From Desulfuromonadales bacterium (lineage in GTDB: Bacteria > Desulfobacterota > Desulfuromonadia > Desulfuromonadales > JACZKF01), in the NCBI GenBank assembly GCA_029289095.1, contig JARFUG010000021.1, positions 1 to 43,142 on the forward strand: a DNA stretch of 43,142 nt. The letters run 5' to 3'. The position numbers were made by a program, and so were the translations under genes. The notes beneath the pieces are model-generated. The model searched no databases, had not been told where the DNA came from, and saw only the letters and a list, made by a program, of their open reading frames with translations. This document shows positions 32,305 to 37,238 of this stretch, in pieces (the first letter of the stretch is position 1; the number at the start of each line of letters is the position of its first letter).

Positions 32305-33225
32305 TCACTCCCTGAGCACGGGATGAAACTCTCCCGTCTCGGGATCCCATCGGTATCGGCCGGCGTCCCAGATTGTCTCGAGTTCGGACCAGTCGAGACG
32401 GACCCCTTCCATTTCGTCGAAAGCGTCCGAGGCCTGAAGCATTTCGCCGTCGTCGATGACGCCGTCGCCGTCAAGGTCTGCCCAGATGTAGGGAGCCGTC
32501 CGCACCTGCTGCGCCCCGGCGACGGAAACGGAGCCGCCGCGCCCGTTCAGATGCGCGACGACTTCCCCGCGGAAGGAGCCGAGTTCTCCCATCTGCGCCT
32601 CCGGGGAGACCCGCACCAGGTAGGAGACGGTCTGTCTCGCGTTCCCCGTCTTGAGAATCCAGCGGATCGTCCCCTCGACGTTGTCGAGGCTGGAGGCGGG
32701 GGGATAGGCCTCGATGACCATCCATCCGGGGGGGATGTTTTCCCGCAGAATGAGCCCTCCAGTCTCCCCGGCGACATCGAGACGAACCCGGACCGGGACG
32801 AGGCTCCCGGGCGCCGCATACCGGGGAAGGACGCGCTCGGCGCCGATCCGGACGTCGGGCTCCGCGTGATCGAAAGACAGCCAGTAGCCGCCGATCAAAA
32901 AAAGGATGAGCAGAGCGAGAAGGACGGAGCCGACCACGAGTCGTCGGGTCGGCTTCGGGCCGGGGGGCTGGGACTGGAGGGACTCGTCCGGGCCGGGCTC
33001 TGCCTGCCTCAGAATCTCATCGAGGGGGACTTCGAGGGCTTCGGCAAGCTTGAGGACGTTTTCGCGCTTGACGGTGGGATAGCGGTTGTTCTCCCAGCGC
33101 GAAATGGTATCGGTGGTTACGCCAACGACTTTCGCGATGTAGAGCTGCGTCAGCTTTTTCTCCTCGCGGATGCGGCGCACGGCAGATCCGTCGAGGCACA
33201 GTGTCGGCGATCGATTCTCATGCAT
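32305..33225 (-). CDS. Membrane-anchored XRE-family regulator with periplasmic EF-hand loop
   Basis: A 306-residue protein. Residues about 13-72 form an XRE HTH (VRRIREEKKLTQLYIAKVVGV; TDTISRWENNRYPTVKRE). A Pro-rich linker (76-93) is followed by one transmembrane helix (96-117), putting the C-terminal 185 residues in the periplasm. That domain has an immunoglobulin/beta-sandwich-like half (VRLDVAGETGGLILRENIPPGW...) and a perfect 12-residue EF-hand loop, DLDGDGVIDDGE (250-261; D250, D252, D254, G255, I257, E261), dockerin-like. The architecture recalls RodZ but sequence outside the HTH does not. Inferred role: calcium or cell-surface signal coupled to transcription. The ribosome-binding site GAGGAAATCTCA precedes ATG. 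Confidence 0.8.
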   Translation of the reverse strand: MHENRSPTLCLDGSAVRRIREEKKLTQLYIAKVVGVTTDTISRWENNRYPTVKRENVLKLAEALEVPLDEILRQAEPGPDESLQSQPPGPKPTRRLVVGSVLLALLILFLIGGYWLSFDHAEPDVRIGAERVLPRYAAPGSLVPVRVRLDVAGETGGLILRENIPPGWMVIEAYPPASSLDNVEGTIRWILKTGNARQTVSYLVRVSPEAQMGELGSFRGEVVAHLNGRGGSVSVAGAQQVRTAPYIWADLDGDGVIDDGEMLQASDAFDEMEGVRLDWSELETIWDAGRYRWDPETGEFHPVLRE

Positions 33226-33423: not shown

Positions 33424-33452
33424 TTGACAGCAGATCCAAAGGGGAGTAAAGA
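33424..33452 (+). promoter_or_regulatory. Promoter of the ATP-grasp/GNAT/KamA operon
   Basis: TTGACA (33424-33429), 17-bp spacer, TAAAGA (33447-33452). Predicted start near 33459, leaving a ~150-nt untranslated leader before the ATG at 33608. Confidence 0.6.
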
Positions 33453-33509
33453 AGCGGCAACGGACGCGTTCCGGTGCGGGCACGCATATTGAAGTCAGCA
33501 TAAAAAGCG

Positions 33510-33602
33510 ACCCCTTTTTATAGCCGCCTGCCCCGTACCGAAAGAACCCTTCCGCCGTCCCCGCCGGGGAACTTCTTTCGTCAACAGGCTCAAAAAAGGG
33601 GT
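33510..33602 (+). promoter_or_regulatory. Structured leader that can sequester the first ribosome-binding site
   Basis: ACCCCTTTTT (33510-33519) is perfectly complementary to AAAAAGGGGT (33593-33602), which contains the Shine-Dalgarno sequence of the first ATP-grasp gene. Nested within this 10-bp stem is a second hairpin, CGAAAGAA (33539-33546) with TTCTTTCG (33573-33580), and inside that CCCC (33559-33562)-GCC-GGGG (33566-33569). The layout fits a translational switch. I cannot match it to a known riboswitch class. Confidence 0.55.
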
Positions 33603-33607
33603 TCAAT

Positions 33608-34681
33608 ATGCACGTCGCTCTCGCCTTCAATCTGAGGCGCGATTCCGCTTGCGAGCTGGAATCGTCCGCCGCCGCCGTTTCATCCACTTCCTCCGCCGAC
33701 GATCTCTATGCCGAATGGGACGACATCCACACCATCCAGGCCGTGGAGCGCGCACTCGCATCGCGCCATCGCGTCTCCCTGGTGGAGGCCGACCTCGACG
33801 CCTTCGGCAAGCTGCGCGCCCTGAAGCCCGACCTCGTCTTCAACATGGCCGAGGGGCTTTTCGGAAACAGCCGTGAGGCGCAGATCCCGGCCATCCTCGA
33901 CATGCTGGCCATCCCTTACACCGGCAGCGACCCCGTGACCCTGGGGATCTGCCTCGACAAGCGCCGCACCAAGGAGGTCCTCGCCTGGCACGGCGTCCCG
34001 ACGCCTCGCTTCTCGGTGGTAGAGAGTCTGCTCGAAATCCCCGCGCGCCTGCGCTATCCTCTTATGGTGAAGCCGATCCTCGAGGGATCGAGCAAAGGGG
34101 TGACCGACAAGGCGCTGGTGCGCGATCGCCGTGCTTTGGTGAAGCAGGTCGAGTGGGTCCTGTCGACCTACGGCCAGCCAGCGCTTATCGAAGAGTTTCT
34201 CCCCGGGCGCGAGTTCACCGTGGCCCTGCTCGGCAACGGCTCGTCGCTGCAGGTTCTGCCGATCGTTGAGATCAACCTCGACGCCCTCCCCCCCGGAGTG
34301 AGCCCCATCTACTCCTATGAAGCCAAGTGGCTCTGGGACACGGAGGAAAATCCCCTGGAGATCTTCTCCTGCCCCGCCCCTGTCGAACCGCTTCTTCAGC
34401 GCCAGATCGAGGAGATCTGCAAGAAGGCGTTTCGCGTCCTGGGATGCCGCGACTGGTGCCGCATCGACGTGCGTCTCGATCAGCGCGGACTTCCCCAGAT
34501 CATCGAACTCAACCCTCTCCCCGGCATTCTCCCCCGCCCTGAGCAGAATAGCTGCTTCCCCAAAGCGGCGCGGGCCGCCGGACTCTCCTACGATGCGCTG
34601 ATTCTGAGCGTGGTCGACGCGGCTGCCCAACGGCTCGGCCTCTGCGAGTGGGGGGAGAATGAGAATCGCCGTATCCTTTAA
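33608..34681 (+). CDS. ATP-grasp ligase, D-Ala-D-Ala-ligase-like (first of two)
   Basis: A 357-residue ATP-grasp enzyme joining a carboxylate to an amine via an acyl-phosphate. Motifs: N-terminal LVFNMAEGLFGNSREAQIPAILDML (Ddl-like, ~78-102), lysine of RYPLMVKPILEGSSKGV (ATP and flexible loop, ~150-170), ALIEEFLPGREFTVALLG, and RIDVRLDQRGLPQIIELNPLPG with Mg-binding residues near 290-312. True Ddl enzymes make cell-wall D-Ala-D-Ala, but no mur genes are near, and pairing with a second ATP-grasp, a GNAT and KamA argues for a dedicated pathway. Start: AAAGGGG precedes ATG. It overlaps the next gene by 23 bp. Confidence 0.87.
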   Translation: MHVALAFNLRRDSACELESSAAAVSSTSSADDLYAEWDDIHTIQAVERALASRHRVSLVEADLDAFGKLRALKPDLVFNMAEGLFGNSREAQIPAILDMLAIPYTGSDPVTLGICLDKRRTKEVLAWHGVPTPRFSVVESLLEIPARLRYPLMVKPILEGSSKGVTDKALVRDRRALVKQVEWVLSTYGQPALIEEFLPGREFTVALLGNGSSLQVLPIVEINLDALPPGVSPIYSYEAKWLWDTEENPLEIFSCPAPVEPLLQRQIEEICKKAFRVLGCRDWCRIDVRLDQRGLPQIIELNPLPGILPRPEQNSCFPKAARAAGLSYDALILSVVDAAAQRLGLCEWGENENRRIL

Positions 34682-35675
34682 CCGCGTCCCCCCGACATTG
34701 CTGCGCGGCGAGTCGGCCGATCGCATTTCCGAGGAAGGGGCTGAAGTCGAAGCCGAAGCCGTCTGCCGGACCCTTTCGGAGATCGGATACGAACCGGCGC
34801 CGGTTCCCCTCGGCGAGGACATCGAAGCCTTCGTCCGCGAACTGCGCCTGTGCTCCCCCGCGATCGTCTTCAATCTCTGTGAGGGATTCTGGGGAGACAG
34901 CAGAAAGGAGATGCACGTCGCGGCCCTTCTGGAGCTGCTCGGCTACACCTACACGGGCGCTCCCCCCTTGTGCCTCGGGCTGACGCAGGACAAGGCCCGC
35001 ACCAAGGACCTGCTGGTGCGCCACGGCCTGCCGACGCCGGGGTACGCCCTCGCGAGAGTCGGCGAAGCGTTTCCGAAAGCTCTCGACCTGTGCTGGCCCC
35101 TCTTCGTCAAGCCCCGCTTCGAGGACGCCTCTCTCGGAATCACCTCCGAGAGCATCGTCGAGACCGAAGAGGCCCTGCACCGGCGCATCCGCTATATCCA
35201 CGAGACCTACCATCAGGACGCCCTCATGGAGGAGTTCATCGAGGGGCGCGAATTCAATGCCGCGCTCATCGGCTCGGCCCCCTTCGAGACCCTCCCTCTT
35301 TCGGAAATCCGTTTCGGCAAAGGACTCGCCCGCCCCATCGTGAGCTACGACGGCAAATGGCGGGAAGACTCCTCCGAATACCAGAAGACGCAGCCCCTCT
35401 GCCCGGCGCCTCTGCGATCGAGGGAGGACCTCCTTTTGCGCGATGTCTCCCTGCGCGCCTGCAAACTGCTCGGGTGTCGTGATTACGCCCGTGTCGACAT
35501 CCGGTTGCGCGACGGCGTCCCCTACATTCTCGAGGTCAATGCCAATCCCGACATCTCCCCGGAGGCCGGCCTGGCGAGGGCGGCGCGGGCGGGACGGATC
35601 AGCTATCACAACCTTATAGAGCGCATCGTCACAATGGCGCTCAAGCGCAAGGAGAACGTCCATGCGAAAGCTTGA
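34659..35675 (+). CDS. ATP-grasp ligase, D-Ala-D-Ala-ligase-like (second of two)
   Basis: A 338-residue ATP-grasp protein, sister to the first but well diverged. Conserved parts: VFNLCEGFWGDSRKEMHVAALLELL, GAPPLCLGLTQDKARTKDLL (substrate/ATP side), LFVKPRFEDASLGI, ALMEEFIEGREFNAALIG and RVDIRLRDGVPYILEVNANPD near 286-306. The loop reads DASLGI rather than the EGSSKGV of the first paralogue, which suggests a different substrate. Its ATG lies inside the end of the first ligase gene (23-bp overlap), implying coupled translation. It overlaps the GNAT gene by 14 bp. Confidence 0.87.
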   Translation: MRIAVSFNRVPPTLLRGESADRISEEGAEVEAEAVCRTLSEIGYEPAPVPLGEDIEAFVRELRLCSPAIVFNLCEGFWGDSRKEMHVAALLELLGYTYTGAPPLCLGLTQDKARTKDLLVRHGLPTPGYALARVGEAFPKALDLCWPLFVKPRFEDASLGITSESIVETEEALHRRIRYIHETYHQDALMEEFIEGREFNAALIGSAPFETLPLSEIRFGKGLARPIVSYDGKWREDSSEYQKTQPLCPAPLRSREDLLLRDVSLRACKLLGCRDYARVDIRLRDGVPYILEVNANPDISPEAGLARAARAGRISYHNLIERIVTMALKRKENVHAKA

Positions 35676-36144
35676 AGCCGCAGACCTGCCGGAACTCACC
35701 CGCATCCTGCGACAGACCGAGGCCTTCACCCCGGTCGAAATCGACTGCGCCCTCGAACTGCTGCAGATCGTCCTGGACGACCCGTCTCAGACCGACTACC
35801 TCGTCGCCGTCGCCGAGGCGAAGGGGCGCATCGCCGGCTACGTCCTCTACGGTCCGGTCCCCCTCACGCAAGGGACGTACGACATCTACTGGATTGCTAC
35901 CGATCCGGCCCTTCACGGCCAGGGGTTCGGCCGGCTCCTGATGGAACATGCCGAAGCCGACGCCAGCGCCAGGGGCGCTCGCATGATCTGCCTGGAGACC
36001 TCCTCGCAGGGGAGCTACAGCCGCACCCGAAGTTTCTACGACAGGGCCGGGTACGTGGAAGAGTCGCGCATTCGCGATTTCTACCGTCCCGGTGACGACC
36101 GCATCACTTACGTCAAACGTTTTCCACAGAAGAAGGAGAACTGA
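35662..36144 (+). CDS. GNAT-family N-acetyltransferase
   Basis: A 160-residue acetyltransferase with the GNAT acetyl-CoA loop HGQGFGRLLMEHAE (101-114) and the preceding strand IYWIATDPALHG. It ends in the family's usual FYDRAGYVEESRIRDFY segment. Substrate unknown; placed after two ligases and before KamA it may acetylate the amino group of the aminomutase product, as AblB does for beta-lysine (inference). The ATG lies within the preceding ATP-grasp gene; the next gene starts 5 bp after its stop. Confidence 0.9.
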   Translation: MRKLEAADLPELTRILRQTEAFTPVEIDCALELLQIVLDDPSQTDYLVAVAEAKGRIAGYVLYGPVPLTQGTYDIYWIATDPALHGQGFGRLLMEHAEADASARGARMICLETSSQGSYSRTRSFYDRAGYVEESRIRDFYRPGDDRITYVKRFPQKKEN

Positions 36145-36149
36145 AGAGG

Positions 36150-37238
36150 ATGGAAACGTGGCAAAAACTGCTGCAGGCGAGCATCACCCGCCCCGCCGAC
36201 CTCACCCGTCGTTTCGGCATCGATTCTCGCCCCCTCGAAGAGGTGGCGGAGCGCTACCCCATGCGCGTCAACCCGTACTACCTCAGCCTGATCAAATCCG
36301 CAGGCGACCCGATCTGGCGCCAGGCCGTTCCGAGTGCTGAAGAACTGACCGACTTCACCTGCCCGGAGGACCCCCTGGAGGAGGAGAACCAGAGTCCGGT
36401 TCCCAACCTGGTGCACCGGTACCCCGACCGCGTCCTTTTTCTGGTCTGCTCCGAGTGCGCCATGTACTGCCGCTTCTGCACCCGCAAACGCAAGGTGGGG
36501 GGCGAAGAGATGGCGATCACCCGCACTTCGATCGAGGAAGGGCTTGCCTATATCCGCAGCCGTCCCGAGATTCGCGACGTCATCCTCTCAGGCGGCGACC
36601 CTCTTCTTCTTTCGGATGAACGCCTCGAGGAGATACTGAAGGCCTTGAGGGCGATTCCGACGGTGGAGATCATCCGCATCGGCACCCGAATCCCCGTCGT
36701 ACTTCCCCAACGCATCACCCCCGCGCTGGTGCGGGTGCTGCGCCGCCATCATCCGCTGTACATCAACACCCATTTCAATCACCCCGACGAGATCACCGAG
36801 AGCTCTTCGCGCGCCTGCGCTCGCCTGGCCGACGCGGGAATCCCCCTCGGGAACCAGACGGTCCTGCTGCGCGGCGTCAACGACGATCCTTCGACGATGA
36901 AGCGCCTCATGCAGAAGCTCCTCGCCATCCGCGTCAAGCCGTACTACATCTACCAGGCCGACATGGTGAAGGGGACCGACCATTTCCGCACCAGCGTAGA
37001 AGAAGGGCTCGAGATCGTGCGCGCCCTCCGCGGACACACCTCCGGAATGGCCTCGCCCGCCTATGTCATCGACGCCCCCGGCGGCGGCGGCAAGATTCCC
37101 CTGCTGCCCGACTATCTGCAGAACCTTGGTGAAAACGTTGTGCTGAAGAACTATCTCGGCGAGAGCTACACCTACCGCAATCCGCCTCGGCCGGCCGAGG
37201 CGGAGGAGTCGCGTCGGGTTGTCAACGCTCATCCATGA
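36150..37238 (+). CDS. KamA-family radical SAM aminomutase
   Basis: A 362-residue radical SAM enzyme related to lysine 2,3-aminomutase. The [4Fe-4S] motif CAMYCRFC (C103, C107, C110) is followed by TRKRKVG. The C-terminal segment HTSGMASPAYVIDAPGGGGK ends in K315, the PLP lysine position, and D308 plus D271 (YQADMVKGTDHFR) align by motif with the aspartates that hold the lysine epsilon-amino group in Clostridium lysine aminomutase. Glutamate 2,3-aminomutases replace those positions, and EpmB enzymes lack the GGGGK motif. Thus a basic amino acid, probably lysine, is the favoured substrate. It is shorter than typical KamA (~416) because the C-terminal oligomerisation part is trimmed. Last gene of the operon, followed by a terminator. 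Confidence 0.9.
   Translation: METWQKLLQASITRPADLTRRFGIDSRPLEEVAERYPMRVNPYYLSLIKSAGDPIWRQAVPSAEELTDFTCPEDPLEEENQSPVPNLVHRYPDRVLFLVCSECAMYCRFCTRKRKVGGEEMAITRTSIEEGLAYIRSRPEIRDVILSGGDPLLLSDERLEEILKALRAIPTVEIIRIGTRIPVVLPQRITPALVRVLRRHHPLYINTHFNHPDEITESSSRACARLADAGIPLGNQTVLLRGVNDDPSTMKRLMQKLLAIRVKPYYIYQADMVKGTDHFRTSVEEGLEIVRALRGHTSGMASPAYVIDAPGGGGKIPLLPDYLQNLGENVVLKNYLGESYTYRNPPRPAEAEESRRVVNAHP

Follow-up and report, generated by a model that had tools for sequence, protein, structure and literature searches.

Few known RNA classes sense salt or osmotic state directly. Among translational riboswitches, preQ1-II, SAM-II, and c-di-GMP-II are pseudoknots: the pairing partner of the Shine-Dalgarno (SD) strand is a loop that lies within a second helix. 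The genes with which Na+-I riboswitches are associated include ablA, dapB, MgtA, and other osmotic or ion genes (PMC9337991). In addition, an aminomutase and an acetyltransferase of Pelobacter carbinolicus have been named ablA and ablB, and PMC3543383 proposes them as makers of the osmolyte Nepsilon-acetyl-beta-lysine. Weak riboswitch candidates have also been described in Geobacter, namely the yjbM and nifV motifs (PMC11109978), and the yjbM motif lies close to the SD and AUG. Like the leader studied here, these are rare, lineage-limited structured leaders within the wider group; they differ in preceding other genes, are known from 3 and 4 representatives, and are set apart from our leader by description rather than by sequence. 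Pelobacter, Desulfuromonas, and aminomutase are unmentioned in the main text of that paper as covered by a term search, and a term search of PMC11109978 and PMC8632094 gave no description of our leader. More generally, such a description was not found in the literature searched, which lacks many journals and is therefore weak evidence of absence.

The leader considered here lies in a window of 43,142 nucleotides (the whole stretch of DNA analyzed) from a Desulfuromonadales bacterium, and its features and operon are all on the plus strand. The operon begins with a D-Ala-D-Ala-ligase-like ATP-grasp protein (33608-34681, 357 aa), followed by a second protein of the same type (34659-35675, 338 aa), a GNAT acetyltransferase that is a candidate ablB (35662-36144, 160 aa), and a KamA-family radical SAM enzyme (36150-37238, 362 aa) whose best match is the lysine 2,3-aminomutase AblA, at a score below that model's own cut-off. 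Of 80 related loci, 54 have the genes in the order ATP-grasp, ATP-grasp, GNAT, KamA; these span several phyla, and some loci are cut by contig ends. By analogy, the operon probably makes an osmolyte, and its equivalence with the ablA/ablB operon of P. carbinolicus is putative. An acetyl-beta-lysine pathway would here be accompanied by the two ligases. The leader in front of this operon is one copy of a real, conserved, structured RNA that is lineage-limited, and we consider this apparently undescribed element a good candidate for a translational riboswitch of a new class, one that would serve osmoregulation.

A predicted sigma70-type promoter, consisting of TTGACA (33424-33429), a 17-nt spacer, and TAAAGA (33447-33452), precedes the leader at 33424-33452, and the same pattern was present in 22/22 leaders in one set and 29/29 in another. 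It lies 12–17 nt before the outer helix, P1, in 28 of 29 leaders (27 nt in the remaining one, L119). Given this near-fixed distance, the transcript is expected to start just before P1, near 33459 in the window, and the position of the promoter suggests that leader and gene share a transcript. The original prediction had put the leader at about 150 nt, which fits the promoter, and had named a transcription start downstream of 33519 as grounds for abandoning the idea; the conserved promoter lies instead upstream of the whole structure. Divergent from the leader is an XRE-type regulator gene with a C-terminal extension (32305-33225, minus strand), a relative of which (51%) was found at a single locus, L006, among the 80 related ones.

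The starting point of the original prediction was a perfect 10-nt complementarity, which we confirmed: ACCCCTTTTT (33510-33519) and AAAAAGGGGT (33593-33602) are exact reverse complements, and the second strand includes the SD (AAGGGG, 33596-33601). Dinucleotide shuffling of the 132 nt upstream, with the SD end kept constant, yielded so long an exact complement, CCC included, in 5 of 2000 shuffles. The lowest-energy nested fold of the window leader joins this SD helix to both of the nested stems that had been proposed, an 8-bp stem (33539-33546 with 33573-33580) and a 4-bp AGCC/GGCT stem (33522-33525 with 33587-33590). Free-energy folding thus recovers the SD helix, and gives the leader only modestly unusual stability against shuffles, at about two standard deviations: z was -1.93 for 33459-33640 (6/200 shuffles equally good) and -2.42 for 33459-33625 (3/200). 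Because these values are mild, folding energy alone is insufficient to settle whether the structure is real. The SD itself is of an unusual GGGGU type that is rare in the source genome. In a survey of 209 long ORFs, with start sites picked by rule, GGGGTT fell inside the SD window in two and GGAG in 107; AAGGGGT was found in none, from which it appears that a longer overlapping frame had taken the place of the leader's own gene. Of 51 leaders, 49 retain the CCCC core together with GGGGT, the exceptions being L119, where the core is lost, and L103, where the SD is lost to an insertion. Constancy of GGGGTT across leaders is the expected product of a pairing constraint.

Alignment of the relatives places this pairing in a different architecture. 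P1, the conserved outer helix, is formed by a 5' strand at 33466-33480 and a 3' strand at 33532-33549, both identified by covariation and by an alignment-free swap test; in the window it has one C.C mismatch (33467/33548) and an AAA bulge in the 3' strand (33541-33543). Inside it, a junction (33481-33497) carries a conserved ACGA in most relatives (A in 37/40, C in 33/40, and G in 32/39 rows), which the window lacks, reading T, T, G at these positions. The junction leads to P2 (33498-33524), a predicted hairpin made of GC plus AUAAAAAG, a CGACCC loop, and CUUUUUAU plus A plus GC, and an A-run/U-run stem of this kind is predicted for 19 of the 22 leaders taken as representatives. The anti-SD strand (33510-33519) holds a CCCC at 33511-33514 that is invariant in 40/40 rows. 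It is followed by a second short 5' strand, AGCC (33522-33525), which pairs with GGCT (33587-33590, identified by alignment conservation) in 92.7% of cells. Two further hairpins complete the fold: P3, a small GCC-NNNN-GGC hairpin present in the other 39 alignment rows and absent from the window, and P4 (33558-33570), which reads TCCCC-GCC-GGGGA and is paired in 95.9% of cells. The long-range pairings are ACCCC (33510-33514) with GGGGT (33598-33602) and AGCC with GGCT. Since the anti-SD sits within the loop of P1 and the SD outside it, their pairing crosses P1 and is a pseudoknot. The nested 8-bp stem takes up 33539-33546 of the P1 3' strand, so that it can form only in place of P1. The conserved fold differs from the nested architecture originally drawn. 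In nested folding of 22 leaders, the SD-locked form was favored over the SD-free form by a median difference of -3.9 kcal/mol; the SD-free form was the more stable in 5/22, and P1 was present in 18/22 SD-free folds. These close energies, which ignore the pseudoknot, look like those of a two-state leader.

Covariation supports the outer helix and P4. Our alignment, A7, holds 40 distinct leaders from 52 sources, with near-duplicates and L021 and L119 left out, and because it was fitted to a model containing part of P1 together with P4, its counts lean to that structure. In it, 13 of 14 P1 pairs and all four P4 pairs show changes on both sides, where the original prediction would have been dropped had relatives shown no compensatory changes. 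In the structure as a whole, 89.8% of cells are paired, a level that none of 500 shuffled alignments reached (80.2% after shuffling), and offsetting the partner strand by a single column cuts pairing to at most 57%. The model did not contain four of the P1 pairs, those of columns 10-13 with 102-105, and one of these, 13-102, has both-side changes in 15 cells. The P1 strand-swap test does not depend on the alignment. For the swap tests, 49 leaders were thinned to 22 below 0.80 similarity, and L103 and L119 were dropped. Cognate P1 strands gave a summed energy of -591.5 kcal/mol against a permuted mean of -442.6 (sd 17.1), with 0/10000 permutations reaching it, and the window ranked second of 22 when wider segments were used.

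The SD helix behaves differently: its five pairs hold in 38–39 of 39 rows, and none has changed on both sides. Being invariant, these pairs are conserved yet uninformative by covariation. The original claim of an SD-hiding leader stands, with the compensatory changes placed in P1 and P4 rather than in the SD helix. P2 showed no significant covariation, and its swap test was not significant (1654/10000 permutations reach the observed sum). The same was true of the swap tests of AGCC/GGCT (434/5000), which has no both-side change in the alignment, and of the pairs flanking the CCCC/GGGG core (762/5000). As none of the three beat permutation, we do not claim covariation for these elements. RNAalifold, run on a plain MAFFT alignment of the 22 leaders, returned the ACCCC/GGGG helix only, without covariation, a null result that reflects how poorly this alignment renders P1. 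P1 was then placed by hand, and covariance models were built.

The window copy is an outlier in its own family. It lacks P3 and reads ATATTGAAG at the ACGA core of its relatives. The original prediction missed a second exact 10-nt complementarity, between GCATATTGAA (33484-33493) and TTCAATATGC (33602-33611), which contains the ATG; a match of this length to the start-codon region occurs in the window alone among 49 leaders, the next longest being 8 nt. With both pairings, the window leader can, as judged from its letters, form a single long, interrupted duplex across SD and AUG. The window copy may be a tighter and possibly signal-blind lock, with sensing altered or lost. Since the copy is atypical, what is inferred for the family may not apply to it. 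The data show a regulatory RNA in the course of change, in which a private hairpin over the start codon has apparently taken the place of part of the conserved core.

At the level of close relatives (63–76% protein identity, L004-L025), 21 of 22 loci show a comparable leader preceded by a TTGAC promoter. The exception is L017, from a Geobacteraceae MAG, where the leader of the full operon differs and has a TTGACA/TATATG-like promoter of its own. A covariance search of homologous leaders, proposed with the original prediction, was run with two models. R1, trained on six relatives with the window copy excluded, detected the window copy at 64.5 bits (E 1.6e-11) and gave 20 matches in 56 sources; R2 was trained on 20 leaders, the window included. 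The source genome has a single copy of the RNA. Across the order, R1 matched 41 and R2 46 of 136 genomes; 47 have the operon's first gene, the ATP-grasp one at 33608 in the window, at E up to 1e-80. RNA and gene occur together in 45 genomes, and in 44 of these the RNA abuts the ATG by coordinates, the ATG being included in the covariance model. Two genomes with the gene and no model match (G022 and G023) are, by contig coordinates, those of L019 and L021, whose leaders resemble diverged members (25.7 and 19.7 bits); in one other (G084), the RNA is present without the ATP-grasp gene. In the sole non-abutting case, G090, RNA and gene are separated by an insertion. Here (L116, G090:C5:443000-448000, 680-1484), the leader is split just before the SD, with some 670 nt before the ATP-grasp gene; the insert holds a reverse-strand frame that by eye resembles an IS200-type transposase, and the end, examined as L103, matches Rfam anti-hemB (RF02837) below threshold.

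Beyond the order, the RNA is very rare. In the class, 46 of 277 genomes match, all in the own order, with 0/141 among the others. Matches in a sample of the phylum numbered 6/395. A single one, in G284, came from outside the class, and there the RNA again precedes the same ATP-grasp gene; G284 is itself the only match among 22 genomes of its class. The operon in other phyla, as in L017, has no such leader at a detectable level, and so does not require the RNA.

In three genomes, the RNA stands, promoter included, before unrelated genes, and these extra contexts hint at the signal. In L114 (2002-2142), it precedes an MgtC gene, followed by C39-peptidase-like, RLAN/RimK ATP-grasp, GCS2, and N-formylglutamate amidohydrolase genes, and in L115 (1001-1136), a C39/RimK-type set without MgtC. 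L119 (4922-5047, minus strand) is a degenerate copy before a DUF5698/DUF2179 membrane-protein gene. Short frames follow the RNA in two of these, of 42 codons in L115 and about 30 in L119, where the stop overlaps the start of the DUF5698/DUF2179 gene. The association with the C39/RimK gene set is not general, as the RNA was found there in only 2 of 25 genomes.

Known classes do not account for the leader, in keeping with the original remark that no class was recognized. Rfam 15 gave no match in the window at gathering score, two chance-level matches at E up to 5, and four matches in 18 sources at E up to 3, one of which touched a leader end (the inserted element of L103). The leader matches neither the lysine riboswitch, nor thermometers, nor any other Rfam 15 family. 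In common with riboswitches in general, a conserved, covarying, structured domain occupies the 5' leader; the counterpart of an expression platform is visible at the sequence level, as an anti-SD conserved opposite the SD in 38–39 of 39 rows. The structured leader able to hide its SD is genuine.

On this basis, the leader is likely to be a cis-acting, riboswitch-like element of translational control for the probable osmolyte operon, with putative switching and a putative ligand. Transcription from the conserved promoter would give a leader of about 150 nt in which P1 encloses P2, the loop and 3' strand of P2 carrying ACCCC(U). In a closed state, the anti-SD would hold the SD (and in the window the start codon as well), leaving the first gene untranslated; in an open state, P1 and P2 would form without the SD pairing, and ribosomes could load. 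The P1/P2/P3 domain would thereby influence the opening and closing of the SD:CCCC pairing, and with it translation initiation. As the SD strand belongs to the conserved fold, we favor an OFF switch, in which the signal would stabilize the pseudoknot. The element stands before a lysine-2,3-aminomutase/acetyltransferase operon and, in rare cases, precedes MgtC and peptide-ligase genes, so the signal would most likely be osmotic or ionic status, in the form of an ion, the end product of osmolyte synthesis, or c-di-AMP. The fullest version of this proposal, which we offer tentatively and regard as possible, is a new riboswitch class, nearly confined to the order, that senses osmotic or ionic state through a P1-enclosed SD pseudoknot and controls Nepsilon-acetyl-beta-lysine-type synthesis plus a few MgtC, peptide-ligase, and DUF5698/DUF2179 genes.

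Other explanations share parts of this evidence. Protein-bound leaders likewise show a conserved fold and an occluded SD, and the conserved ACGA junction and P3 loop could be the binding site of a trans-acting factor, so that a regulatory protein or small RNA, and not a small molecule, might gate the SD. Against this, no regulator gene was seen traveling with the operon; the XRE-type gene, the candidate at hand, was matched in one of 80 related loci and was set aside as a cognate factor. The three further contexts with unrelated genes also lower the likelihood that a product of the operon regulates its own synthesis, and we consider a trans-acting factor unlikely on the whole.

A structure without any specific signal, giving constant low translation, folding-coupled translation, or a temperature response, seems rather improbable as well. 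It would agree with the invariant SD pairing, with the modest fold stability in the window, and with the persistence of the window copy and L119 despite the loss of conserved core features. Simple SD hairpins and thermometers, however, need no covarying enclosing helix, no conserved unpaired ACGA, and no conserved P3. The SD pairing comprises four G-C pairs plus A-U pairs within a complex conserved fold, and four G-C pairs would be strong for a thermometer. The anti-SD and SD strands also form an inverted repeat in the DNA, as a palindromic operator for a DNA-binding protein or a chance complementarity would; but P1 covaries as RNA, CCCC core and GGGGT are retained in all leaders except two, and the shuffles put the chance rate at 5/2000. 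DNA-level or chance origins are largely refuted by the P1 covariation and are very improbable. A riboswitch-like leader thus remains our preferred reading.

Set against the systems described at the outset, this leader is a compact candidate, tightly tied to a probable osmolyte operon. The Na+-I riboswitch (DUF1646 motif, RF03071 'Sodium') resembles it in adjoining lysine 2,3-aminomutase (ablA) and osmotic genes, and differs in mechanism, since transcription termination is given for the tandem ablA case (PMC9337991) whereas the SD is the target here. Its model has 55 positions compared with ~150 in our leader, the leaders match it in neither sequence nor structure, and none of the 136 genomes of the order carries it. 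With the c-di-AMP riboswitch (ydaO, RF00379), the common element is control of osmotic stress. The leader does not match RF00379, which occurs elsewhere in only 6/136 genomes; the c-di-AMP cyclase (PF02457) is present in 127/136, the source genome included, so c-di-AMP is available as a signal. Next to five of the six RF00379 copies (L205-L210), the following frames are potassium-uptake-like (TrkA-like or Kup-like by eye, without HMM), and the remaining locus, L206, is too short to judge. Finally, although preQ1-II, SAM-II, and c-di-GMP-II were not matched in the Rfam scans of the leaders, they are like the leader in that folding is coupled to access to the SD.
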